A DNA stretch of 64,000 nucleotides. Origin: Ustilaginoidea virens. Its lineage: Eukaryota; Ascomycota; Sordariomycetes; Hypocreales; Clavicipitaceae. A program made the position numbers and the translations under genes. Within the stretch, counting starts at the first letter, position 1. Every line of letters starts with the position of its first letter. The stretch is from positions 4,154,001 through 4,218,000 of the forward strand of contig NC_057316.1 of assembly GCF_000687475.1 (NCBI RefSeq), given 5' to 3'. This document shows, piece after piece, positions 19,500 to 43,911 of the stretch. A model generated the notes under the pieces. That model ran no database searches, was not told where the DNA came from, and worked only from the letters and a program-made list of their open reading frames with translations.

Positions 19500-22428
19500 C
19501 TAGGTGTACACGCTCTCGGTAAAGGAATTCACTTGCAAACCCCTTTCGGCCATCTCGGCCCCTTCCAAAAATGACATGGGCATGCAAACTAAATGACCCT
19601 TGATTTGGGATAGCTTCTCGCGCGCTTCATCGGGGGGCATGAATTGGTCGTAAATGTGGCCGGCTTTGACACCCCTGGGTGGTAGATAACGATCGTAGTC
19701 GTTGAAGTTCTTGACTAGTCACTTGTTTTAGCATCTTGCATCTGCCAAGGACGCAGCAGTGTCCAGCATTGGGGCTACCTACTGTGATCATCAGGATCGG
19801 CATGGAAAACATTGCGGAAGAGCTTTGTGTTCTTCTCTGCCTGTCCCATCCACTTGTCCCAAAGCTGGTCCGACAATGGGTCGGAAACAAATTCCCACGA
19901 ATCATCCCTGTCGTAAACGTCGTTTTCCGCCTTGACGGTGGGAGGCTGGGCATTGATGTCGTCTTGGGCGTCAAAGGCTTGCGGGGGCAGCAAGCCAAGA
20001 TGCTCTCGCCAAAGATAACGACGCAAGGTGGCCGCATGATAACCTGCTTCGAATGGTTTGCCGTCCATAGTAGTTTGAATCCTGCGACCATCTTCCATGA
20101 CGATGCTAAGCTCGCTATCGTGGTCACCGAGCTGGCTTCGGTCATTCAGGTTGCTGGATCCGCAAATGACGATGCGGTCGTCGGCAATAAGGAGCTTCGA
20201 GTGAACGTATAGCTCCTCCTGAATCCAGTTTTTAATCTCCGACTCTTCGTCTTGACGATTATCCCACGGCTCATCCTTCAGCGAGCCTTCCGCCTTCATG
20301 GCATGATGGGCAACACTTGCCGCTGAGATGACTTCCTCTTCTGGCTTCTCTCGCTCAAAGGTCTCTCTGGCACGCATGGCATCCTCTGCTGCCTTTTTTT
20401 GAGAGCTCCTCATGTTGGATTGGCGCCTCTCCCTTTCCGCCTTGCGGTGCTCCTTCCGCCTTAAGCGTAGTTCGGAGAATCTGCCGCCATCTTGCTCCCC
20501 AGAGCTGCTGCTGTCATAGCCGTGTACCCCGCTAGCCATGATTTCCTCGGCTTCGGCCCGTTGAACTTGCTGGTAGCTGATACCCGTCTTCTTCTCAGCT
20601 TCGCAAATGGCATGCGTCTTGTTCAGACGGTCGTAAGATCGCAAGTTGAAGAAGAAGATGTGTTGGGTGGGGTCGACACCCTCCTTCTTGATTTGCCCAA
20701 AGATGGAGTGTTCTCCTCGACAGATCGACTTGTACTGGTAGTCCATGATGGCTCTGGTTCCGGAGGCCGCATTCTCGCGCAAGTCGCCGGCGAATCCTGG
20801 AATGGCGGGGATGATGATGATGATGCGGAACTTGCGGCCCTCCTTGGCTGCTCGGACGACTGCTTCCACCATGGCTCGCCCGATCGTGTTGTGGATCGGG
20901 TATTGCTGGTCGCCAGTAGCGGTGATGAAGAATTGGTTTTCGATGTAGACGTAATGCTCGGCTTTGCGAATGACGTCGATGTAGGCATTCTGTATAGAGT
21001 GATCCTTGAGGATGCCGCTGGACCAGTCAGCGCTAGATCGTACGAGTTGCGCACGAACAGTGCCCCTGCCGTCCAAGCTCTTGGTGCTGAGCGGCGACAG
21101 AGGATGCTTAATGTAGTCGCCAACGGGATGCTTGGGCCTCTGGACGCCCACCAGGTCCTCGTCGTCACCCTCGCGCCCTTCGAGCATAATCCAATCATAT
21201 CTTTCATCCCGCTTGTACTTGTCTCTTTTGATAAAGTTCCAGCGAAGAATGAAGTGCTCGGCCATGTCGTAGACGCAGGGTCCAACGACAGCCATGGAGA
21301 CATCATGCCACGGCATTCGACCGTACTCGGCCTTGCTCAGTTCATTCTCCTCCCAGTCTTGTACCTTTTTAAAGTCCATGATGCGGTTATTGTTGAAATC
21401 TTGGCCCGGCCATATTTCTTCGGAAACGCCTTCGGGGTGCACATCGGAAAGAGGATGCTGATGGGCGTCCCAACGGCCAAAGCACAAGTCTAGCCCTCCA
21501 ATAAAGGCAATGGCGTAGTCAATGACGATGAACTTTTCGTGATGAGCCCAATACATGGTCATGTCAGCAGCGTTTTCGAAGACGTTGTGATCGGGATGCC
21601 TCATGACCCGAATGTTGCCGTGACCAGGCGTGCCCTCTGGGCAAAGCGCATCAAGAGCATGCTTGGTGTGGCGAGAGTTGCAGGTCAAGGCGGCTTCGAC
21701 CTCCTTGTAAACAGACACGTAAATTTTTACTCCAGCCTCTGCTCTTCTTTTGAGGACCTGGTCCAGGCGATAGTCCTGTTTATGGTACGGCGGTCGTCGC
21801 AGAAACAGTTCGGGAGATAGCCACCAGCCGCAAATATAGATGGATTCCCGAGCCTGCTCCAGGGCCACGGAAACAGCCCAGAAGTAGTCGCGGCCATCGA
21901 CGTACCACTTGACAAGGTTGCCGTCCCTTTCAGGAAAGTAGGAATTGAAACGATGCGATTGACATATGGCAGAGCGCTTCTCGTCGCATCGCTGTTCGTG
22001 TTCTTCATCGTGACGGTGGTCTTTGTTAAACTGTGGTCAAGGATTTTAGCAGACGTCCCTTCTCTCCATCCCCTTCGGCCCTCCCTTTTCTTCTTTTCTT
22101 CTTTTCTTCTTTTCTTCTTTTCTTCTTTTCTTCTTTTCTTCGTTTCGCAGTCGTTTTGGGAATACGCACCAAGTTTCCAAATTTACCAATCTGATGTCTA
22201 CAGAGGAAAATGTCAACCGGCCTTGGAGACTCAAGGCAAGCAAGGCATGGCAGGGCTGTCGTCAACGTACTTTTTGTGAATCAAGGCGACTTTGGCGTCA
22301 TGAAGCTTGGTGTCGCTAAGCTTTTCTTTCAAGTCGTCCATGAACCCCGAGAACCCGGTATGGTTCCCGGGTTTTTTCTCATCCCCAGGGATAGCACGGT
22401 CATTGGGAATTTCCCCAGTCTTGGACAT
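19500..22428 (-). CDS. phospholipase D (two HKD motifs, PLD1/PldA type)
   Basis: Hydrolyses phosphatidylcholine to phosphatidic acid at membranes. The main exon 22030-19783 and last exon 19714-19500 join in phase (PDDH-IKNFNDYDRYLPPRG) and end VNSFTESVYT. HKD1 is HHEKFIVIDYAIAFIGG and HKD2 is HSKLLIADDRIVICGSSN, with YIENQFFI and the IIIIIPAIPGF strand between them, as in eukaryotic PLDs. A Lys/Glu-rich insert separates the halves. No PX or PH domain is visible, unlike yeast Spo14. The first exon is less certain: 22428-22267 (MSKTGEIPNDRAIPGDEKK) requires a weak GTTGAC donor to keep phase. A further exon to 22608 (MSAVPISVACSNHPP) can be joined in phase by a 46-base GTACGC/CATAG intron. The intron before the main exon carries a CTTTT-type repeat. 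Confidence 0.88.
22088..22142. repeat. (TTCTTTTC)-type pyrimidine repeat
   Basis: Tandem CTTTT/TTCTT array inside an intron of the phospholipase D gene; purine-rich on the sense strand. Confidence 0.85.
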
Positions 22429-24192: not shown

Positions 24193-25156
24193 ATGTCTGC
24201 TCCCGTTATTCCCCCCGGCGGCACCATTGTGCAAACCTTCAGGCGATCCTTCGCAGACGTTCCCGTCGATGCGGAAAAGGACAATGCCATTGCTACTACC
24301 GAGTTTCTTGATGCTGCCGAATCACTGACCACCATGTTTGGTACGCGCTCTCCCTCTCTTCCGCTCCGTGCCATTGTGCGTTTGGCGGCACTGCTGATGT
24401 CCTTTCTGCTCATCAGATGTCTTGGGCTCCGTTGCCTTTTCCCCCGTCAAATCCGACATGCTGGGCAATGTCAAGGTAGTCCCCTTAATTTTTTTTTTTT
24501 TTTTTAAAAAAAAAAACTGGATTATTGTTGTTGTTGTTGTTATTTTTTTCTTTTTTTTTTTAAAAAAAAAGAAATCTTTCTCAGCTTCTCAGTCGCAGAG
24601 CTGAACCTGACGCGAAGTGGATGCTGAAATATGCTCTTGTAGAAACTTCGTGACCGCCAGCTTGCTGCCCCTGCCGAGTCCGAGAATATCCAGGACCTCT
24701 GCCGAAACGAGCTCAAGACAAAGAAGCATACTGCCACTGAAGGTCTTATTTGGCTGGTTCGGTATGATCTCACCACCCCGTGTCGTTTGTCGTTGTACCT
24801 GGATTGTGGGTTGCAAAGTCCTTGGAAGGAATTCAATTAACACAGAAAATGAAATCCGCAGTGGGCTTGATTTCACCTGCGTCGCCCTCAGCTCCAACAT
24901 CGCCAACAGCTCTCACGAACTCGCCGAATCTTTCCGCAACGCCTACGGCCAGACCCTCAAGCCACATCACGGATTTCTCGTCAAGCCAATCTTCAGCGCC
25001 GCCATGAGCGCCTGCCCCTACCGCAAGGACTTTTACGTCAAGCTTGGTTCGGATGAGGGCAAGGTTCAAGAGGAGCTCCGCGTCTACCTGGCTGCCTTGG
25101 ACAAGATTGTTGGCATCCTGAAGGGTTTCCTGGAGAGCAAGGATGCTAAATGGTAA
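24193..25156 (+). CDS. het-c: glycolipid transfer protein, HET-C2 homologue
   Basis: Cytosolic GLTP-fold protein moving glycosphingolipids between membranes; the Podospora orthologue HET-C2 controls heterokaryon incompatibility. Four exons join in phase: 24193-24340, 24417-24475, 24643-24761 and 24862-25156, giving 206 residues against 208 for HET-C2. The glycolipid head-group site is intact: D63, N67 and K70 (in KSDMLGNVKK), W106 (EGLIWLVRGL) and H144 (KPHHGF), each three less than the HET-C2 numbers as I recall them. The C-terminus LAALDKIVGILKGFLESKDAKW is typical. Intron 2 carries two long T-run/A-run pairs. Whether allelic incompatibility operates here cannot be seen from one sequence. 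Confidence 0.95.
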
Positions 25157-26132: not shown

Positions 26133-27374
26133 CTACCATATCGATCTTGATCTGATGGACAGGTGCTGAGGCCGTCGAAATCGGGGCCGTTTGCGTTGCA
26201 GGGAGCTCACCGACTCCCCGTCCACCTCGCAATCTCGGCCGAGCCAGCGGGCAATGCTGTCCGTGGCCTTGCCGTACTCGACGAAGACGCTCTCTTTCGG
26301 AGTCATGGGAGGCGGCTTATCCCAGGCATGACCTTCTCCTTCCACGACCCGCACAGTAAACGGCACGTCGTTTTGCTCTAGTCGCTCAGCAAACCGTATG
26401 CCCTCGGCTAGCAGCATATCGTACTCGCATAGAATCATGTGCAGGTGAGGCAGTTTTTTCAGCAAGTCATCCGGCATCAGTCCGGGTGACATCCTGGGAT
26501 CAGTGCGTTGTTCCCGGGGAATCGGCGGATAGAAATACGATGCATCTATAAGATCTGTCAGGCCGGGAGACAAGGTGCGCTCCGGTCGAGTGCAAGCTTG
26601 ACGCTTGCCAGGCCGAGTAATGGTCACGTCCAAGGTGGGGTAAAACAAGATGATGCCGAGTATGGACGGCGGCGGACTCGGCAGTTTGTAGTTCCACCGA
26701 GCTGGGTCTTGCATGGCGATCCAGCTGGTCAGAGCATTCGTCGCTCCTGCTGAGAAGCCGGACAGCACGATGCGGTTTGGATCGATGCCAAACTCGGATG
26801 CCCGCGAGGCAATCTGTATGGTGGCGTCGACGCAATCCTCCATTGGGGTAGGAAATGGGTAGCTCGGTGCCAGTCGGTAGTTGACGGTGAAGACAACGGC
26901 GTCCAAGTTGCAAAGCACGGCACCGGCCCAACGAGCATCGTCGGTGCCTTGGCCCAATATCCACCCTCCGCCATGCAGGTTGATGACGGCGGCGCGTGGT
27001 CCGAAGGATATCCGTGGAGGATTCCACACCTCTGCCTTGATCTTGCCTTTGCCCTTCCAGGCTGACAAGGTTGAATCTAGCCAGATTTCTCGGGAAGGGC
27101 ATGGTGCTGGAGGATCAGACCGGTTATGAATGCTGAACCCCAGGCTGGCCGCGTAGCGTACGGTCTGGGCCTTTGCGTTAAGATACCATCTGGAGCTGGA
27201 CTCGAGCGGGTTGTCATACTCGTCGCCAGCCTCCGAAGGTGCAGGAGTGGAGACAGCAGTGCCGATGGCAGATGGTGTCGTGAGGGTGGCTGGAGCCGAC
27301 GACGATTCGGTGCAGGTCACGCTGCGTCTCAGAGCATCCGCGCGAAGGGGAGCTTGTCCAGGCGAGTCCAACAT
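26133..27374 (-). CDS. alpha/beta-hydrolase (HSL/abhydrolase_3 type), candidate ergosteryl-aspartate hydrolase
   Basis: Single-exon serine hydrolase, 413 residues from the start chosen here. The oxyanion-hole motif HGGG is at 134-137, the nucleophile elbow GFSAG carries S208, and D319 (CEYDMLL) and H349 (GEGHAWD) complete the triad. The TDDARWAG segment after HGGG is usual for fungal members. Residues 1-60 are Ser/Thr/Pro-rich. The frame stays open to an ATG at 27626, but a TATAAAAG box at 27455-27448 lies about 75 bases upstream of the ATG at 27374, so transcription should start below the longer frame. The gene is divergent from erdS. ErdS systems are known to pair with the alpha/beta-hydrolase ErdH that removes aspartate from ergosterol; family and position fit, but the substrate is inferred. 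It could be another ester hydrolase. Confidence 0.85.
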   Translation of the reverse strand: MLDSPGQAPLRADALRRSVTCTESSSAPATLTTPSAIGTAVSTPAPSEAGDEYDNPLESSSRWYLNAKAQTVRYAASLGFSIHNRSDPPAPCPSREIWLDSTLSAWKGKGKIKAEVWNPPRISFGPRAAVINLHGGGWILGQGTDDARWAGAVLCNLDAVVFTVNYRLAPSYPFPTPMEDCVDATIQIASRASEFGIDPNRIVLSGFSAGATNALTSWIAMQDPARWNYKLPSPPPSILGIILFYPTLDVTITRPGKRQACTRPERTLSPGLTDLIDASYFYPPIPREQRTDPRMSPGLMPDDLLKKLPHLHMILCEYDMLLAEGIRFAERLEQNDVPFTVRVVEGEGHAWDKPPPMTPKESVFVEYGKATDSIARWLGRDCEVDGESVSSLQRKRPRFRRPQHLSIRSRSIW

Positions 27375-27447
27375 TCCGGAACCAAGTTGGTATCCCACCG
27401 GACTCGGGCCCCGCGTTCGCTCTTTTGCGTTGTTTGTGGCGAGAATA

Positions 27448-27455
27448 CTTTTATA
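27448..27455 (-). promoter_or_regulatory. TATA box of the alpha/beta-hydrolase gene
   Basis: TATAAAAG on the minus strand, about 75 bases before the ATG at 27374. It argues for that ATG over in-frame ATGs at 27503 and 27626, which lie upstream of it. Confidence 0.65.
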
Positions 27456-29536
27456 CGAGCAGGCTAGCAGTCGCCAATCGCAGCCGAGTTGCTGCCCAGT
27501 CATGCGCCGGGGGGGGAGAAAAGCCCCGGAGGAAAGGGTTGGCCGTGGGAAAAGAGCGAGAACTGCGACGGTGCAAGTGATTTGAGACGAGTCAAGTTGC
27601 TTTGGAGGGGAATAATTTTGCCGCAAGCAGTCTAGTCAATCAGACGTGACGTGGCGGCTCCGGTTGGCTTGCAGAGATCATACCGCAAACGCAGGATGGC
27701 GAAGACGACATGGAAGGAAGAGGCGGGGTAATGGTGAATGATGTCAATCGCTCATGAACTGAACTAAAGGCTGAGCGGTTGTTGTTGCAGCGCACCTTTT
27801 CAGCCGCGCCAACTGAGCTCGACCGTTTTGAAGTCCTGGAAGGCAGCATGACCTACCCCAATGGCAGCATGACCTGGAAGTTTCGCTGCCCTTGCTGCCA
27901 GGCCATGGCACCTGCCTATGTAGCACCGACCTGAAGGCACGTGCATGTACTCTGTACGTAGAACCTCCTACCTACCTCCTGGCAACCAAGCAAGGGGGGA
28001 TGCACTTGCTTGTTTAACGCCGGAGACTGTGCAGTTGGTCACGTCATCATTGGCTCCGACTCAATACCAAGGCACGGGGCGGAGTACGGAGTACGGAGAA
28101 CGGAGTACTTTGTAATGCTCTGTGCGGAGTGGATGACAAATTGAGGGGTGTGTGACGAGCGGGTCCGGTAAGATGTCATGCTGACTGACGTCAAACGGTC
28201 AAAATCCGTGGTACCTGCCCCTGACACTAAAGACACAGAAAGGCAGGAAAGAGCAGGACAGAGCAGGAAAGAGCAGGATAGAGCCATGCTGAGCAACAAG
28301 CAAGCAGCAAGTTTTTGCCTTCTGTCTCTCTCTCTCTCTGTGTCTGTCTCTCTTTCTCCCCCTTTCTTACTCCTTTGTTTTGAGCGCCATCTGTGCACCG
28401 AGTTGGAGAAATCAAAAACTTGTCCCCCAAATTAAGAAGCCGTGCCAGTTGCCGGGAACCGGGTTTAGCCTAGCCTGCCACGAGCCCATGACGGTCCTCC
28501 GCTGAGCAGGCTCCGAGCCTCTGACGGATGTTTGGCAAAAGTCCGGGCGGGCATTGAATACGTGGTACCTGCTAGCCCAAGGTGTCCCAGCGAGTGATTA
28601 GCAGAGGATGATTTATTGGGAGGTACCTAGCTACCTTAGGTTAGGTAGGTTATCCGTACTTTGCCGGTAAGCTTGCAAGCTCGACTCCCGAAGGGCTTCA
28701 GACCGCTTGCTATTTCATCTGGTGCTAGTTATTTCGTGCTGTAATTTGTCCGTGGAAGCTGTGGGGCCAGGAGCAAGTCGGAGATTGTCAGCAACAAGCC
28801 AAGCCGTGCGAGGCGAGAGAGCGCTTCAGGAGTCCTGACTTCCGTGAGGACAAAGGACCAGACGGGTCCGGGTCCAAGGAAACCTTGTTCAAAGGACTTC
28901 ACGGAGGGGTTCGTTCCCACACGGAGTGGGCGAGCAGTATAATAAGCGGCGCGGCGACTGCTCGACTCCTGCTTCTCCCGTTTTCTCGATGACTTTTGGA
29001 TTCCTGTTGGCCGCAGACCTCGTCGATCCGACATCTCAGCTCTTCAACCATCATATCCTAGGCACTCCAACATTAGCACTGGAGTCGACTTCTTGTCGAT
29101 AAAGCAGACTGGAATACCCCGCGAGCCTAGCACCCCTCTTCCTCACGAGTATCGAATATTCAGTATTCATCCACCAACGAAGAGTTAACAAAAGTTGCCC
29201 GAAAAAGCGCATCAAAAAAAAAAAAAAAAAAAAAAAAAAAACAGGAATAGACAACCTACGATTCGCCAGGTGTCGGGCACCGAAGGTCCCCCCACGCCTG
29301 ATTCGGCTCCCAACCCCGGCATTGTTACCTCGTTGCCATTTCGTGCCTGTACCACTTATTTCCTTGGCCGTATCGATCGAGCTTTGAAACCTGCCAAGTG
29401 GGAACCCGGACCATCCCTTCCGCTCAACTTTGCATTTGCAGAAAAGTATAGCGCAAACTTCAAAGCTTTATCTTCTCCGTTCTCGTCGTTTGACAACCCG
29501 CTCACGCCAACGCTCACGCCAACGCCCCTGGCAGCA
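27456..29536. promoter_or_regulatory. 2-kb divergent intergenic region, hydrolase / erdS
   Basis: Shared upstream region of the hydrolase and erdS. It contains three TACGGAGTA-like words in tandem near 28082-28110, a CT microsatellite near 28322-28358, a GGTACCTA-type stretch near 28620-28655 and a 27-base A run near 29214-29240. A frame continuous with erdS extends left through the A run to 29195, but the Lys-only repeat there looks like 5' leader rather than protein. No other gene is visible. Confidence 0.55.
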
Positions 29537-32293
29537 ATGCCAAGCTCCTCTGTGTTCGCTCCGGTGGCATCGGCCTTCGGCTTGCCCCGGTCGTCGCCCA
29601 GTCGAAACTCCAGTCCCCTCAGGACCGGCGACGTCACAGAGGATGCCAATTACACAGCAACCTTGTTGACGTCAAATGCTTCGGGAATCACCAGCCCGAG
29701 CCCCAGTTCCGCGTCGCCCGCTACTCCTTCCACGCCCCCATTCTCTGCAAGTGCTTTCGGCAGCAACAAGCGACTGCCCAAGATGAACGACGGCGCCGTC
29801 GACGTCGTCAAGAGCTCAGCCCGCTCCAGCCTGGAGATGCTCAGCCTCAGCAACTACCGAGCCGATCTGGACAGGCTCAACGACAAGTCGCAGCGTTCCA
29901 GCATGGACAAGAGCAGCAGAGACTCTGGCCGCTCTAGCCTGGACAGTGGCCGCACAAGCTCCAGCGCCGATTGGCCTGCCCACCCTTATGAGCTCAACCC
30001 CATCTCCGAGCTGGACAAGCTTCCCCTTGGAACAGAGGTCAACTTTCGAGCCAGGCTAGTCACCCAGCGACAGCTGTCCAAGAACCTAGACTTTCTCCTC
30101 TTCCGTGACCAGACGCACACCGTCCAGGGCGTCCTGTCTCGGGAGTACCTCGACATGGTACGGTGGGTGCAGAAGCTCAACTCGGAAAGCCTGGTCCAGG
30201 TAAACGGGACCCTCAAGGCCCCGCCCGAGCCCGTTCGTTCGGCGACGCATTCCAGTGTCGAGGTGGAAGTGCATTCCATACTCCTGGTCAACGCTGCCCA
30301 GGGGGCGCCCTTCACAAATTACAAGCCCCCCGAGACTCTTCGCAACCGCCTGACGTCCCGGATTCTCGATCTTCGTCACCCGTCCAATCAAGCCCTGTTT
30401 CGAATCCGCGCCCTTGTGGCGCGCAAGTTCCGCGAAACTCTGGAAGAGCAGGGCTTTTTGGAAATCAACACCCCCAAGCTGCAGCCCGCTGCTACCGAGA
30501 GCGGCGCAGCCGTGTTCAAGGTAAACTACTTTGGCCGAAATGCCTTCCTCGCGCAGAGCCCGCAGCTGGCCAAGCAAGAGGTCGTGTCGGCCGACTTTGG
30601 CCGCGTCTTTGAGATCGGCCCCGTCTTCCGCGCCGAAAACTCCAACACGCATCGCCACCTCACCGAGTACACCGGCCTCGACCTCGAAATGGCCATAGAA
30701 CACGACTACCACGAGGTAATCGCCGTCATTGACGACTTCCTCAAGTCAGTGTTCGCCGCCGTGTATGCCATGCCCGAGTTGAGCGAGGTCCAGAAACGAT
30801 GGCCCAGCACAGAGTTCAAGTGGCTGGACGAGACCCTGATTCTCGACTTTCAAGACGGCATCCAAATGCTTCGTGACGACGGCCGAGATGTCGAGATGGT
30901 GGATCTGTCCACCCGAGACGAAATTCGCCTGGGCCAGCTGGTCAGGGAAAAGTACGGGACCGACTATTACGTCCTGGACAAGTTCCCCACCAGCGCCCGG
31001 CCCTTCTACACGCACAAAGACCCCCAAGATCCATTCTGGACGAGGTCTTTCGACATCTTCATCCGAGGACAGGAGGTCTGCTCCGGCGGCCAGCGCATCA
31101 ACGACGCCGCGGAGCTGCGGGAGAGCATGAGGGCCTCGGGCATCGCGGAAGACGGCATGCAGGACTACCTCGACGCCTTTGATCTCGGCGCGCCTCCCCA
31201 TGCCGGCGCCGGTCTCGGCCTGGAGCGCATCGTGGCCTGGATGCTGGAGCTCGGCGACGTCCGGTACGCCTCCCTTTTCCACCGCGACCCCAAGTCGCTG
31301 CCCGAACAAGCCCCCGGGCTGCCGCACCCGGAGGCCGACACCACCAAGCCGCTCCGAGACGGCGCCATGCCGCCCGTCGAGAAGCTCATTGCCAACTACG
31401 GCGACGCCTCCAACACGTCTTGGCTGGACGAGCGGTTCGAGATCTGGAGACACCCCACCGGCGCCGCCGTCGGCTACGTCAGGCAGGACAAGTTCGCCAT
31501 GGTCACGGGAGACCCGCTGTGCGAAAAGTCGCAGTACAACGACGTCGTGGCCGCGTTTGTCAAGTTTGTGGAGCGCGACCTGGGCCTGTCGCCGGTGTGG
31601 ATGATGGTCTCGTACAACGTCCAGAAGATCCTCGGCCAGCAGCTGAAGTGGCGCACGCTGTCCTGCATCGAGGAGCAGAGGGTGGACGCCAGCAAGGTGC
31701 ACAGCGTCAACGGCAAGGGCCCCAAGGCGCGGCGCGTCGAGCGCGAAGGCGTCAAGATGCAAGAGGTCAAGCCCGACGCCGACCTGATGCGGCGGGCCGA
31801 CGAGGCCATCGCGGCCTGGAAGGCCAACCGCAAGGGCAAGCAGATGCACCTGACCGAGGTGCGCCCCTGGGTCGACATGGACCACCGCCGATACTACGTC
31901 GCCGACAAGGGCGGCAAGATGCTGGCCATGGTGGTGCTGGCGAAGCTGTCGCCCGAGCACGGCTGGCAGGTCAAGTGGGCGCTCGACTTCCCCGGGTCCG
32001 TCAACGGCGCCATCGAGGTGCTCATCGAGCACGCCCTGTCGACCATCTCCGGCCAGGTCACGTTTGGCGTGGGCGTGTCGGAGAAGATGACGCCGGGGGA
32101 GCACCTGCACGGCCTGCGCGCCAAGTTCCTAGCCTCGGCGTACGCCTCCATAGTCGACAGCCTGGGCCTGCGTCGCAAGGCCGACTTCCGCAGCAAGTTT
32201 GGCGCCCTGGGCGACGTCGTCTACATCTGCTTCCCCAAGCACGGCCTGGGCCTGCGCGACATTCAGCACATTGTCAAGTTTTTCCAGGACTAG
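29537..32293 (+). CDS. erdS: ErdS: aspartyl-tRNA synthetase-DUF2156 fusion, ergosteryl-3-beta-O-L-aspartate synthase
   Basis: Two-part enzyme that charges tRNA-Asp and then transfers the aspartate from the tRNA to the 3-beta-hydroxyl of ergosterol. Single exon, 918 residues from the ATG in GCAGCAATGC. Residues 1-150 are a Ser/Pro-rich extension, 160-255 the OB-fold anticodon-binding domain, and 285-585 the class II catalytic core. Motif 2 is FRAENSNTHRHLTE at 364-377 and motif 3 GAGLGLERIV at 557-566, both intact, so aminoacylation should be retained. About 615-905 is the DUF2156 domain, a GNAT-like tRNA-dependent transferase related to the MprF C-terminus (VGYVRQDKFAMVTGDPL, SYNVQKILGQQLKWRTLSC). 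An intact AspRS part favours ErdS over ErgS, the related glycine-using enzyme. Upstream in-frame codons to 29195 run through poly-Lys and are judged untranslated. Confidence 0.92.
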   Translation: MPSSSVFAPVASAFGLPRSSPSRNSSPLRTGDVTEDANYTATLLTSNASGITSPSPSSASPATPSTPPFSASAFGSNKRLPKMNDGAVDVVKSSARSSLEMLSLSNYRADLDRLNDKSQRSSMDKSSRDSGRSSLDSGRTSSSADWPAHPYELNPISELDKLPLGTEVNFRARLVTQRQLSKNLDFLLFRDQTHTVQGVLSREYLDMVRWVQKLNSESLVQVNGTLKAPPEPVRSATHSSVEVEVHSILLVNAAQGAPFTNYKPPETLRNRLTSRILDLRHPSNQALFRIRALVARKFRETLEEQGFLEINTPKLQPAATESGAAVFKVNYFGRNAFLAQSPQLAKQEVVSADFGRVFEIGPVFRAENSNTHRHLTEYTGLDLEMAIEHDYHEVIAVIDDFLKSVFAAVYAMPELSEVQKRWPSTEFKWLDETLILDFQDGIQMLRDDGRDVEMVDLSTRDEIRLGQLVREKYGTDYYVLDKFPTSARPFYTHKDPQDPFWTRSFDIFIRGQEVCSGGQRINDAAELRESMRASGIAEDGMQDYLDAFDLGAPPHAGAGLGLERIVAWMLELGDVRYASLFHRDPKSLPEQAPGLPHPEADTTKPLRDGAMPPVEKLIANYGDASNTSWLDERFEIWRHPTGAAVGYVRQDKFAMVTGDPLCEKSQYNDVVAAFVKFVERDLGLSPVWMMVSYNVQKILGQQLKWRTLSCIEEQRVDASKVHSVNGKGPKARRVEREGVKMQEVKPDADLMRRADEAIAAWKANRKGKQMHLTEVRPWVDMDHRRYYVADKGGKMLAMVVLAKLSPEHGWQVKWALDFPGSVNGAIEVLIEHALSTISGQVTFGVGVSEKMTPGEHLHGLRAKFLASAYASIVDSLGLRRKADFRSKFGALGDVVYICFPKHGLGLRDIQHIVKFFQD

Positions 32294-33452: not shown

Positions 33453-35292
33453 CTATTGTTCTCCGCGAGGTGACCCTTGGTTGCTGTCGCTGCCTCCTCC
33501 AGAAAAGCGCTGCCGTAGCCAGTTCCACGCCCCGGGACCTGATTGCCGGCCATCCTCCCCATCGCTGTTGCCGCGTCTATTGCCTTCCGAGGGGCTCCTC
33601 TGTCGCATTCGAGCACCTTGCTCGGTCAGCGTTGCCGCTCGTGGACTCGTTGGCGAGTGCGATGTCCTGCGTTGCAGTCGCCATGCTTCGTACCCAACTG
33701 TGGTGGATGCAGGCCCTCGATCACGGCTCTCGTAGTCCCTCTCCCTCTGTGCGTTGGCGACGTTTTGCAGAGCCTCGTCCAGTCTGCCACCACCTTGATG
33801 TCGTGACTGACCACGAGAATCCAGGTAAACGGACGACACCATATCAGCTGCTGCTCTGCCCGTGGGCGTGTCGGCCCCGCCGTCGTACCTGCCGTTGAAG
33901 ACTCTGGATTGATCCGAGTTTTGACGGCTGAAGCTCGCCGGGGGTCGTCGGTGGAAAGGCGCGTCATTGCCCGACGCCGAGGTGCCTGCATCGCCCTGGG
34001 CGTCTCCAGGTGTGTTGCGGCTCCTGCCCCTGTTGGGCTTCTCGATTGGCGTTCGGCAGACTGGACAAGTGTTGTGCTCCTTCAACCACAGGACCACGCA
34101 ATCTTCGTGAAACCAGTGTTTACAGGGCAGGAAGACGGCCGTCTCCCCCTCCTTCATCTCGTCAATGCAGATGGAGCACTCTGCCTTGCCGCCTTCTCTC
34201 GCCAACAGATGCTCGTCCACGGGTCTGCGATCCAGCTTGCCCAAGGCTTCTTCTGAAGCTGGAGGCGCCGCATTGGACTGCGGGTTGGCTTCCATGAGTT
34301 GCGTGATGATGCGATCCAGTGCCTCTTGCGAATAAACGGCGTCGCCCATCATTGCATTTGCTGGGTTGAACAGGTTGAGAATGTCTTGCAAGCTTCTAGC
34401 GAAGCCAACTTGAGGACCGCCCTCGCCAGCACCACCGGGAGGGGCCATGTCTCGTATGACGTTGGAAAAGATGCTGTTCCGAATAATTAGCCTCTCCAAG
34501 AATACAGACAAGGAGGGGTAGCAGAAACGAATGCAAATGCCCACGGTAGAGTGGAGCAATGGTCTCTGCATAGAAAGCGTGGATTAATTCCCCGAGGGGA
34601 CTTCAGTCACTTACGCTTGAAAAGGATCTACGTCGCCCCGAGTATTGGTGGCGTCATTGCCTTCAGCATGATGGTCTCGAGGACCAAATGCTGGGCCAGA
34701 AATAATAGTGACGGATGCGGTACCTCCCCCAAAGGTACCGGATGTAAATGTGGTGCGATGAATCCGTGGTGGAGCAGGGTCATCATTGTGTTGTCTATCA
34801 AGAAGACCGCCGCCACCTTCGGTCCGTCGGGGTTGGCCAAAGTTCTGGATCATGTGGAAGAATCGTTCAAAGACTGGATCTATTGACGGGTCATGATGTC
34901 TCTGGTCCGAACCTCTGCGAGTGCTCCTGCGAAAGTGAAAGCCGTGGGGCCCCATGTGCTCTTCTATATCGGCTTCATCTGGATCCGAGTCATCTGCGTG
35001 ACGTAACGGTGGCAGGCCAGGTGATGTGGAGTTTGAAGATGGCGTTGTAACTCGAGGATCGTTGTCCGGGTCGACCTAGGAAGAAAAAGACGTGAGTATA
35101 ATACTGGGCAGGTGGGTCGATAGGCAAGTAAAGTAAAACCGACGCACGTACAATTTCGGTTATATCGCCTTCACAGCGGGGGCATATCAAGCCGTACTCG
35201 TCGCGATACCACTCGTGCGAACAGGCGTGACAAAAGACAACCTCGCGGCCCTGGCTGGCATCCAGCCAGTCCCGAGAACTTTGAGATGCCAT
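33453..35292 (-). CDS. RING-H2 E3 ubiquitin ligase, RNF126/RNF115 type
   Basis: Probable E3 ubiquitin ligase. Exons 35292-35152, 35075-34615 and 34473-33453 join in phase to 540 residues. An N-terminal zinc ribbon (C21, C24, C37, C40; FCHACSHEWYRDEYGLICPRC) and a distal C3H2C3 RING (CSICIDEMKEGETAVFLPC, HWFHEDC, CPVC) match the architecture of RNF126/RNF115, which act in cytosolic quality control by recognising exposed hydrophobic segments. Between them is an acidic, Gly-rich region with DPVFERFFHMIQNFG. The tail after the RING is long, basic and disordered (Arg/Ser/Gly-rich) and ends GSDSNQGSPRGEQ. Both introns have consensus donors (GTACGT, GTAAGT). Confidence 0.9.
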
Positions 35293-40132: not shown

Positions 40133-42538
40133 TCATGTCGAGATTGCCAGCGATTTGGATGCTTCCTCCTTCACTTGCTGGTTATCCGCCTGTTCCCGCA
40201 AAAACTTCTTCCTCTCGTACACGGCCCGCACCGTGGACCTAATCTGCTCTTTGCTCTCGTCGTAATTTGCCCGTGCAAGGCTGACAACACTGTCAATCTG
40301 TTCGGGAGCATACACAAAGTTCCATGTGCTGAGAAAGTCGGTCGTGCCAGGGGAAATATCTGGCCCTTTTGGGTTCGCCACGAACGGAACATAAACAACC
40401 GCAAGGCCCGCATCAGGTTCCATGAGTTGCCACCTGTTTGTCTCGTCGATGGCTTTGGCCGGCGGAGGGGGCTTTGGAGATCGTTCTTGCGTCGTGCCGA
40501 CCCAGACAGTACAGTATCCCAAGTCGCCGGCTTCTTCGTCCCCAGCCTGCAACTTATCTTGGTCGGTTGTGCTGTTGCTGGCTGTGCTGCCGTTTGCTGA
40601 TTCCTTGAGACATCTCTGGTCCTGCTTGGCCTGCTCCACTCGTCGGTCTGCCTCGCGAGCGGATTTGGCTTCGGCATTGGCGAGCTCTTTGACAGTCTCT
40701 TTGACAGATTCACCCGGTTTTGGCCAGCCAATGCCTACCGGCCAGCCCTTGATGCCGCGCTGCCGAGCGTATCCATCAGCCACAGAGAGCCAGTTGTCCG
40801 TCTTGATGTCTGCAGAGGCGTCAAATGCGATGAGAATGTCGACGTTTCGACCGGGTCGTAAGAGAGGATAGATGGGCAGGTTGTTTGACATGCCCGCATC
40901 CATAAGCTGGATGTGTTCTCGTTCGTAGATGCTGGGAGGTGTCATGCTAGATAATTTGCCGTGCATCTGATAAGCAAAGTTGGGAATTGTGGCGGGATCT
41001 ATAGGGTGGACTTTACTCAAGTCGTCGTCTCGGCCAGAGACAAACTCGTCAAGGCTGGCGAGAGCTGTTATGCTGAGAACCAGCGGCTTGATTTCTCTGT
41101 AGTAGTGGCTCAGGGTGGCACAAAAGGCGCTCCCAAAGACGCCCATCAACAAAGGTACCCTAACCTCTGGAAGGTGGAACCCGTGCTCTGGCGGAACGTC
41201 GCTGCCGTTGTTGAACTTTCGTCCCATGGCCCAAGTCGGGATACCGGCACCAAACTCTTCGCAGAAGAACTCGTACGGCGTGATCTCGTACCATTGGAAC
41301 CATGGCTCCTCCTTGGTGAGCTTCTTGTCCTCCTTAGTCAGCTGCCCCTGATTTCCTTCAGCCCGTGGAATCTCGTGCCGTACAACGGTGTAGATGGGTA
41401 ACGGACGATCCCCGTACTTGACAAGTTCTCTCTGGTTGGAAAGCTTGAGATCTCTCTCATTGACGCCAAGCTCGCCTTTGGGGACTAGCAATCGAGATGC
41501 CAGCAACAAGCCGTAGACATCGACGAGACCAAAGTCGGCCTTATCGTCGCCTCGCAGCTTCTCCACCAGGCCACTTAGCAGAAACTTGTTTGTCGGCAAC
41601 GAAACGAGGGATTGGAGGGCAACTGGTGGGTATGCGATGTGGACATTCAAGCGAGCCTTCAAATGCTCCAGCAGCCGTGTCAGGTCGCCCCCTGATATGG
41701 AGGAGTTCAAAAGAGTCTGTAGCCAGCAAGAGCCGCTGACACCCGCAGTATACGTAACGCAGTCAAAGAGCCCGTCCTCTTCGGTGGCAATCAAGGATCC
41801 AGTGCCGGCGACAAGGGCGCGCAGGCCGCCTCCCGAACCGCACATGGCAATGGTGGGGATATCATCTGGATGAATGTCGTTTTCGCGGAGGCCGAGATAT
41901 TTGGCTAGAGCAACCCGTATCACTTTTTTACGTCTTGATAGAAACTCCTTTTCGTCATTGCAGAGTTCGCAAGACACACGAACGTTGGCTTTCCAAGCAA
42001 TTTCGGGGTTGACGTTTGGGTCATGCGCCTCTTCCCAGATTTCATCCGCCAGAGAGCCAGGGGCCATGGACAGTTCCCTCTGAAGCTTTTTCACGTATCC
42101 AGGTACGAGTTTGGACCAGTCTGGGAGAATCAAGTCGGTGACTTTTTCCGAAAAGGCGCCCCATTCGGTGTCGGTGATGCCGGCGATGCTTTCCATGCGC
42201 GCGGCAAAGCTGTCCCACGCGTTCGCGGGTGGCTCGGCTGCCACCTTCGTATCACCACCAAGCCTTTGTCCGTTTGGTTCGGTTCGAGACCATCTTTTTC
42301 GTTTCTGTGTGGGGGTGAGATAATCAAGGTCTTGAGAGGGATATAGCCACCAGATGAACAAGAATCCTGCAGCGAGGCTAATGGATAAGCTTACTCCAGA
42401 GGTGCTAGGCTTTTTGGTAAACGTAAAGAGACTTTGCTGGAAATTCCTGTGCAAGGGTGGAGGGGGGCGACTGGTGCCAACTCTCCATGGCAAATTGAGA
42501 GTCCGCAGAGACTTGGCGACGCCGTTGAGGTGTCTCAT
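40133..42538 (-). CDS. cPLA2-like lysophospholipase/phospholipase with N-terminal membrane anchor
   Basis: Cytosolic phospholipase A2 (PLA2c/lysophospholipase) catalytic fold, single exon, 801 residues. The N-terminus is basic (MRHLNGVAKSLRTLNLPWRV), followed by one membrane helix at about 49-66 (VSLSISLAAGFLFIWWLY). The arginine-containing glycine loop GSGGGLRA is at 234-241 and the nucleophile S268 lies in GVSGSCW; the catalytic Asp is in LMDAGMSNNLPIYPLLRPG. A charged Ala/Lys/Glu insert follows the Asp. The N-terminus resembles a mitochondrial presequence plus inner-membrane anchor, as in fungal membrane-bound cPLA2 proteins, but ER is possible. Longer in-frame starts run into a (GCAA)n repeat giving Leu-Ala-Cys repeats, so the ATG at 42538 is preferred. 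Convergent with mL44. Confidence 0.88.
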   Translation of the reverse strand: MRHLNGVAKSLRTLNLPWRVGTSRPPPPLHRNFQQSLFTFTKKPSTSGVSLSISLAAGFLFIWWLYPSQDLDYLTPTQKRKRWSRTEPNGQRLGGDTKVAAEPPANAWDSFAARMESIAGITDTEWGAFSEKVTDLILPDWSKLVPGYVKKLQRELSMAPGSLADEIWEEAHDPNVNPEIAWKANVRVSCELCNDEKEFLSRRKKVIRVALAKYLGLRENDIHPDDIPTIAMCGSGGGLRALVAGTGSLIATEEDGLFDCVTYTAGVSGSCWLQTLLNSSISGGDLTRLLEHLKARLNVHIAYPPVALQSLVSLPTNKFLLSGLVEKLRGDDKADFGLVDVYGLLLASRLLVPKGELGVNERDLKLSNQRELVKYGDRPLPIYTVVRHEIPRAEGNQGQLTKEDKKLTKEEPWFQWYEITPYEFFCEEFGAGIPTWAMGRKFNNGSDVPPEHGFHLPEVRVPLLMGVFGSAFCATLSHYYREIKPLVLSITALASLDEFVSGRDDDLSKVHPIDPATIPNFAYQMHGKLSSMTPPSIYEREHIQLMDAGMSNNLPIYPLLRPGRNVDILIAFDASADIKTDNWLSVADGYARQRGIKGWPVGIGWPKPGESVKETVKELANAEAKSAREADRRVEQAKQDQRCLKESANGSTASNSTTDQDKLQAGDEEAGDLGYCTVWVGTTQERSPKPPPPAKAIDETNRWQLMEPDAGLAVVYVPFVANPKGPDISPGTTDFLSTWNFVYAPEQIDSVVSLARANYDESKEQIRSTVRAVYERKKFLREQADNQQVKEEASKSLAIST

Positions 42539-42559
42539 TTGCGAACAAGATGGAACCAG

Positions 42560-42560
<1 letters not shown>

Positions 42561-42601
<41 letters not shown>
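42561..42601. repeat. (GCAA)n microsatellite
   Basis: Ten tandem GCAA tetramers just upstream of the cPLA2-like start codon, in its 5' leader. Confidence 0.9.
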
Positions 42602-43911
42602 TGACAGCGGCAGTGACCAAGACGCCAACAAAAACAACAAAAAAAAGAAAAGGAAAAAAAATTAATAAAAAAATTAAATTAAGGGAAAAGAAGAGGAAGT
42701 AGGAAATAACTACCAAGCTCTTTCAACAATAACAGGCGGCGCGGGATTATCACAGTCGAAGAGGTCGGAGAGGACGCGCAATGTCTTGCATCTCAGCGCT
42801 CAGCTGCATGGACAGCCAATGGCAGGTTGAAGGTTGAAGGGAGGCAAATGCGAGGGAATGTGAGCTGGATGCTTGCGGTTTGCGGTTTGCGGTTTGCGGT
42901 TTGTTGACGTGCAAGTGTCGAAGTCAACGACCAGCCTATTATGTCATTATGTCATGGACGGTACCTGCAGCCATTCCATTGGAGGAAGGAACCCCCCGCG
43001 AAAATGGGCATGGGCTTGGTGTTCGGCACCTGCAACGTACCAGACATGTACCTACCTAGGCCTGGTACCTCCTACCTGAGAAGGCACCTTTGAAAGTAGG
43101 TCCTTGATACATGCCGGCGATGAGCTGCCCAAGGCTGTTGTATCTATTTTTGATGCGGCCCCTTGCTAAGAAGGCCTTGCGCACAAGATGCTAAGACCTG
43201 CAACCTACAGGTCGGTAGGTAGGTAGGTACCTTGGATACCTGGTACAAGTCGCCAAGGCCCACAATTTGTCTGGGAATTGATAGAGTTAGCAGACGACGC
43301 ATGCTAGACAACGTATGCATTAATTGAAGCGATATTAGTTTGATGGCTTTTTATTCTAGTTTATTTTTGATTTTTCTCCATAATGGTATTTTCATCCCAT
43401 CGATTCCTATTTACAAGGCAGGTCCTGCTACGCGGTTCGAAATTCCAAGGTCGCTGATGCGACTTGGCCCGCATTCGCCAAGGTGACAAAGGCGGTGAGT
43501 GAGTAAGCGGCGGCGCGACACTCGCTGAGTTTTTGGCGCTCTGGTGGGCGGCAGAATTTCCGTCATTTTTTTCCGCACACGGCTTTGTTTGTCAGTTGCA
43601 GAACCAAACTCTCGCTCGCACGACGCAGACCATCTTCATCCCAAGCTACCCTCTGGACATCTTCGCACCCGGCGATTGTCCCGAGGTAGGGTCAATTGAC
43701 TCGTCTTGTACCCTTGTCTCGCTCCAAGGCAGTTCTCCTGTCGACGCGCCGTCTGGGAGCAAAAGCCCCGCCACCAAGTCCTCCCTTGATTCTTTGGATA
43801 GGTCTGTCAACCCACTGTGTTTTTTATATCTGGGAGTCTGCAGATGTTGCAAGCTGTTTAAGGCCTATACTTCGTCATTCTCTGATACAAAGAAGTAAGC
43901 AGGTCGACAGG
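42602..43911. promoter_or_regulatory. divergent spacer, cPLA2-like / La
   Basis: No independent gene. Includes GCGGTTT repeats near 42876-42902, GGTACCTA-type stretches near 43046-43080 and 43205-43240, and a long La 5' leader. A 121-codon frame at 43533-43898 ends 14 bases before the La ATG and looks like leader sequence, although a leader peptide cannot be excluded. Confidence 0.5.

Follow-up and report, generated by a model that had tools for sequence, protein, structure and literature searches.

An ErdS-type synthase gene and a divergent candidate erdH hydrolase gene in Ustilaginoidea virens

Ustilaginoidea virens (Clavicipitaceae, Hypocreales) is the rice false smut fungus, a crop pathogen, and two divergent genes in its genome (37.2 Mb, 8 contigs) raise the question of whether they encode the writer and the eraser of an aspartylated sterol. 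Both lie in a stretch of 64,000 nucleotides of contig C1 (C1:4154001-4218000), the whole of which we call the window. One gene encodes a 918-aa protein in which an aspartyl-tRNA synthetase (AspRS) is fused to a DUF2156 (LPG_synthase_C) aminoacyl-tRNA transferase domain, and the other encodes a 413-aa alpha/beta-hydrolase. Yakobov et al. in 2020 reportedly described ErdS and ErdH, the latter an alpha/beta-hydrolase acting on ergosteryl-aspartate, and in 2022 are said to have described ErgS, an ergosteryl-glycine synthase; adjacency of erdS and erdH is perhaps already in print. A preliminary description of the window had proposed that the fusion is ErdS, that its neighbour is ErdH and that the region between them allows balanced expression. 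From sequence comparison we now hold it very probable that the fusion protein is the fungal writer of ergosteryl-aspartate, with the hydrolase as its probable eraser. The AspRS half of the 918-aa protein would charge tRNA-Asp with aspartate, the DUF2156 half would pass the aspartate to the 3beta-hydroxyl of ergosterol, by the ErdS chemistry established for the family, and the hydrolase, via Ser208-Asp319-His349 and an HGGG oxyanion hole, would probably cleave the aspartyl ester to release ergosterol and aspartate. Read in this way, the locus is a new example of chemistry already known from other fungi, and no surprise.

The fusion protein and the hydrolase

The erdS-type gene is a single open frame on the + strand (29537..32293), whose 918 codons run uninterrupted from an ATG at 29537 to a stop ending at 32293, the frame being open upstream as far as 29195. 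Pfam matched the product to tRNA-synt_2 (PF00152, 249 bits) and to LPG_synthase_C/DUF2156 (PF09924, 48 bits), each above its cut-off; the match to the OB-fold (20.5 bits) fell below its cut-off of 27. Class II motifs 2 (RVFEIGPVFRAENSNTHRHLTEYTGLD) and 3 (GAPPHAGAGLGLERI) were both present, and residues R365 and R564 were invariant in 37/37 aligned sequences, namely the window protein and 36 chosen from 120 listed relatives; the N-terminal part before about residue 134 was poorly conserved in the same alignment. Three solved structures, PDB 9w9e, 9w9f and 9w9g, deposited as 'Aspartate--tRNA ligase, cytoplasmic', aligned with the synthase from residue 155 or 157 to its last residue, 918, with E values of 1e-240 to 1e-232 (9.6e-241 for 9w9e, over residues 157-918), and we infer from its sequence that 9w9e is itself an ErdS. 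Within the aligned part, the deposited sequences of 9w9f and 9w9g differed at nine residues, counted by eye; the synthase matched 9w9f at all nine (9/9), these positions were invariant in 37/37 aligned synthases and, in our reading, they would lie in the synthetase active site or close to it. AlphaFold modelled the synthase poorly (mean predicted local distance difference test score, pLDDT, 58.5), and a fold search with this low-confidence model returned AspRS or AsnRS structures as all its top 50 matches, one of them in a transamidosome, with 9w9e absent from those 50.

The protein shares with ErdS the presence of AspRS and DUF2156 in one chain, aligns co-linearly with solved fusion enzymes 862-947 aa long, and at 918 aa differs from ErdS in nothing notable. 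Two of the 12 JGI-named proteins among the 120 listed relatives carried the source label 'ergosteryl-3beta-O-L-aspartate synthase', which is the name and function given for ErdS in PMC9437257; the erdS gene tag of Aspergillus fumigatus is AFUA_1G02570 in a table of PMC11619415, and an occurrence of the tag is found also in PMC4551469. Assignment of the 918-aa protein as an ErdS-type enzyme is thus strongly supported. The fusion with intact motifs 2 and 3 was as the preliminary description had it, and its naming of the fusion as ErdS gained from the architecture, the co-linearity with a solved fusion enzyme and the existence of further AspRS genes at other places in the genome (see below).

The candidate erdH gene is likewise a single open frame, on the - strand (26133..27374), with its ATG at 27374 and its stop ending at 26133. 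The 413-aa product matched Abhydrolase_3 (144 bits, Pfam) and carried S208 in a GFSAG motif, D319 and H349, these three at exactly the residue numbers first described, and HGGG at 134-137. The HGGG and the G-x-S-x-G nucleophile elbow within an Abhydrolase_3 domain mark it as hormone-sensitive-lipase (HSL)-type, and residues and fold together as an alpha/beta-hydrolase with a Ser-Asp-His triad. Catalytic Ser, Asp and His and the HGGG were invariant in 72/72 aligned relatives, chosen from 120 listed, and the nucleophile motif was GFSAG in 119 of the 120 and GFSSG in the remaining one; the seven paralogous frames of U. virens examined carried GVSAG, GESAG or GDSAG instead. The U. virens genome showed no closely similar second hydrolase, its next-best matches being just 26-38% identical. 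In a tree, the hydrolase and its relatives from the listed Sordariomycetes formed one group, apart from its own paralogues, and the window's hydrolase was the sole member of that clade found in U. virens. One relative at 73% identity (P0019) bore the source label 'putative ergosteryl-3beta-O-L-aspartate hydrolase', the only such label (1/8) among the JGI-named proteins in the list. None of the best 60 of 106 solved-structure matches bears the name ErdH, nor is ErdH among the nine NCBIfam families that matched, all nine with scores under their curated cut-offs. ErdH is the likely, and the most likely, identity of this protein.

Both genes are real far beyond chance given the number of their database relatives at E 1e-3 or better, 275 for the hydrolase and 2,900 for the synthase, the latter figure counting AspRS-type proteins generally.

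Linkage in other Hypocreales and the shared intergenic region

The likeness to ErdH includes linkage to the synthase gene in Hypocreales, which we measured by matching contigs by size between two lists of 120 relatives each, one for the hydrolase (120 different sizes of longest contig) and one for the synthase (118). Relatives were thereby compared by contig and locus tag rather than by gene orientation, within a synthase list that does not extend far beyond Hypocreales; a missing match between the lists is uninformative, and shared contigs longer than 1 Mb do not show adjacency. At least 24 contig sizes were common to both lists among the matches listed, 8 of these 24 being 30 kb or less. Shifting the sizes by 1-200 in either direction, as a control, left 0.16 in common on average and never more than 2, which shows linkage of the two genes in other Hypocreales. 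The window's own pair falls outside the 24 because the row of its synthase (P0121) gives a contig of a different size. Locus tags were visible for both genes in five cases; hydrolase and synthase tags were consecutive in four (E4U41_003766/003767, E4U14_000754/000755, E4U54_006204/006203 and HIM_02719/02718) and two apart in the fifth (V2A60_003001/003003). In a Cordyceps assembly (RAO-2017) the two genes lie on separate short contigs of 8,190 and 3,552 bp, by which linkage is left undecided.

As a synteny control, a flanking gene was searched in the same way, 118 of its 120 listed rows having a contig. This gene, for a HET-C2-type glycolipid transfer protein (GLTP; 24193..25156, + strand, four exons), lies beyond the hydrolase gene as seen from the synthase, tail-to-tail with the former, and its product is 100% identical to UV8b_00926 of U. 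virens. Its results weigh against a special bond between synthase and hydrolase: among the matches listed, GLTP shared at least 16 contig sizes with the hydrolase list, that of the window's contig included, and at least 11 with the synthase list. In Claviceps lovelessii the tags of GLTP, hydrolase and synthase were all consecutive, and in five other species those of GLTP and synthase were two apart. The rate of linkage is broadly comparable for GLTP, so linkage alone is no argument for shared function. We accordingly did not accept conservation of linkage specific to the pair: the two genes are linked in Hypocreales, and the linkage extends to GLTP. By contigs and tags, the three genes form a conserved block in Hypocreales, whose order may be ordinary regional gene order. 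Two species offer leads only. In Hirsutella minnesotensis, where the pair is consecutive (HIM_02718/02719), GLTP (HIM_02703) lies 16 tags from the hydrolase, and in Ophiocordyceps camponoti-leonardi GLTP lies 30 tags from the hydrolase, the synthase row being unseen there among the matches listed.

The start codons of the two divergent genes are separated by 2,162 bp (27375..29536), an arrangement that, like the coordinates of both frames, was confirmed to the base. A TATA-like word stands near either gene: TATAAA on the - strand (27455-27450), 76-81 bp ahead of the hydrolase start, and TATAAT on the + strand (28938-28943), about 600 bp ahead of the synthase start. Between the latter word and the synthase start runs a stretch of 28 A (29214-29241), which is probably part of the synthase 5' leader. 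The promoter scan used was of a bacterial type and for a fungus is not meaningful beyond the TATA-like word; words of this kind arise by chance and are no sign of shared control.

The neighbourhood could have been conserved because selection favoured joint control of writer and eraser from this one intergenic region; this is the likeliest of the other explanations, if still an unlikely one. The 24 shared contig sizes, 8 of them of short contigs, are consistent with it, as is H. minnesotensis, which keeps the pair consecutive with GLTP well removed. Against it stand the contig sizes that GLTP shares with either list, a linkage read in the relatives from contigs and tags, and the presence of two separate TATA-like words, one for each gene, some 1.5 kb from each other. 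Slightly more doubtful still is the fuller proposal that in Hypocreales the head-to-head pair is a selected regulatory unit, more than mere neighbours, with the balance between writer and eraser set by the intergenic region that they share. The idea of a writer/eraser unit is attractive, and is unsupported beyond regional synteny.

Substrate of the hydrolase

Identification of the neighbour as ErdH must also be weighed against the proposal that the fusion is ErdS and the hydrolase an HSL-type esterase for some other substrate (a xenobiotic ester, an acetyl-sterol or another lipid), merely syntenic with it, with the true ErdH elsewhere. Several observations pull in that direction. The hydrolase fold is common to many HSL-type esterases with varied substrates, and the model matched many of them about equally well. 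Names were mostly generic, 7 of the 8 JGI-named relatives among the 120 listed being 'acetyl esterase/lipase' and the NCBI names being of the kind of arylacetamide deacetylase or lipase. The branch parting the hydrolase group from the U. virens paralogues had support of 90/77, with very long paralogue branches. Abhydrolase_3 matched 13 further places in the genome, some of them pieces of one gene and one under the cut-off, and the GLTP flank is syntenic too. One of the paralogues (locus L004, C5:489069-489932, - strand) also matches the Say1/Mug180 steryl acetyl hydrolase family (PF10340).

On the other side, the one ErdH label given by a source falls within the hydrolase's own group, that group has a single conserved nucleophile motif, the genome holds no close second copy and the hydrolase itself had no PF10340 match at E 1e-3. 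The HSL-type esterases EstE1 (2c7b) and Est2 (1evq) differ from the hydrolase by its GFSAG nucleophile elbow, and among the top 50 Foldseek matches esterases of this type were 17-28% identical to it. An esterase for another substrate is, on balance, improbable. The designation of the neighbour as ErdH consequently stands as likely and falls short of proven, being carried by its place as sole clade member, its catalytic residues, the one ErdH label and the linkage. A hydrolase grouping with esterases unrelated to sterols and an ErdH orthologue lying elsewhere would have told against it, and nothing of that kind was found in the comparison made here with the paralogues of U. virens and the listed relatives. 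As a separate observation, the locus at C5:489 kb is another sterol-esterase candidate.

Other AspRS and DUF2156 genes, names and neighbours

Elsewhere in the genome, a separate AspRS, eukaryotic/archaeal in type and carrying motifs 2 and 3, was found at C4:5.047 Mb in three coding blocks; in tblastn, the blocks covering its catalytic domain were 51 and 47% identical and that of its N-terminal domain 28%. Bacterial-type AspRS fragments, with scores below curated cut-offs as fragments, lie at C1:5.17 Mb and probably represent the mitochondrial enzyme. With separate AspRS genes present, the fusion comes in addition to the enzymes of translation, as an ErdS should. A main role of the fusion as cytosolic AspRS in translation, for which the database names of its relatives, its intact synthetase motifs and a TIGR00458 score above the cut-off would speak, is very improbable in view of the C4 enzyme and the C1 fragments.

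Many of the 120 listed synthase relatives (P0121-P0240) carry the name 'aspartate--tRNA ligase, cytoplasmic' or dps1, which on ErdS-type fusions is likely a misannotation. The naming problem extends to the hydrolase relatives, which are called arylacetamide deacetylase, lipase or similar.

A DUF2156 (LPG_synthase_C) frame without a synthetase lies at C1:1900951-1901838 (- strand; locus L009). ErgS is a freestanding DUF2156 protein in the account of PMC10449517, and this frame is probably ErgS, the ergosteryl-glycine synthase; the window protein shares the domain family and differs by its AspRS fusion, so that, being joined to a synthetase, it is not of the freestanding ErgS type. No obvious hydrolase was seen by eye near L009 among frames of at least 150 aa within about 9 kb on either side, and hence nothing at that locus pointed to a second writer/eraser pair. 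The pair in the window places the sterol-aspartylation pathway in a pathogen of crops that has an ErgS-like frame as well, so that U. virens and its relatives can be used to study the roles of aminoacyl-sterols.

Beyond fungi, the bacterial MprF/aminoacyl-phosphatidylglycerol (PG) synthases and the aminoacyl-PG hydrolases, papers on which are cited in PMC10580965, likewise involve aminoacylation of a lipid from tRNA and a hydrolase dedicated to the product, but modify a glycerolipid whereas the fungal pair would act on a sterol.

Around the pair, a RING-finger protein gene (33453-34571, - strand) is convergent with the synthase gene, and the same 64-kb window holds a phospholipase D-like gene (19775-21868, - strand) and a PLA2_B (lysophospholipase) gene (40133-42640, - strand).

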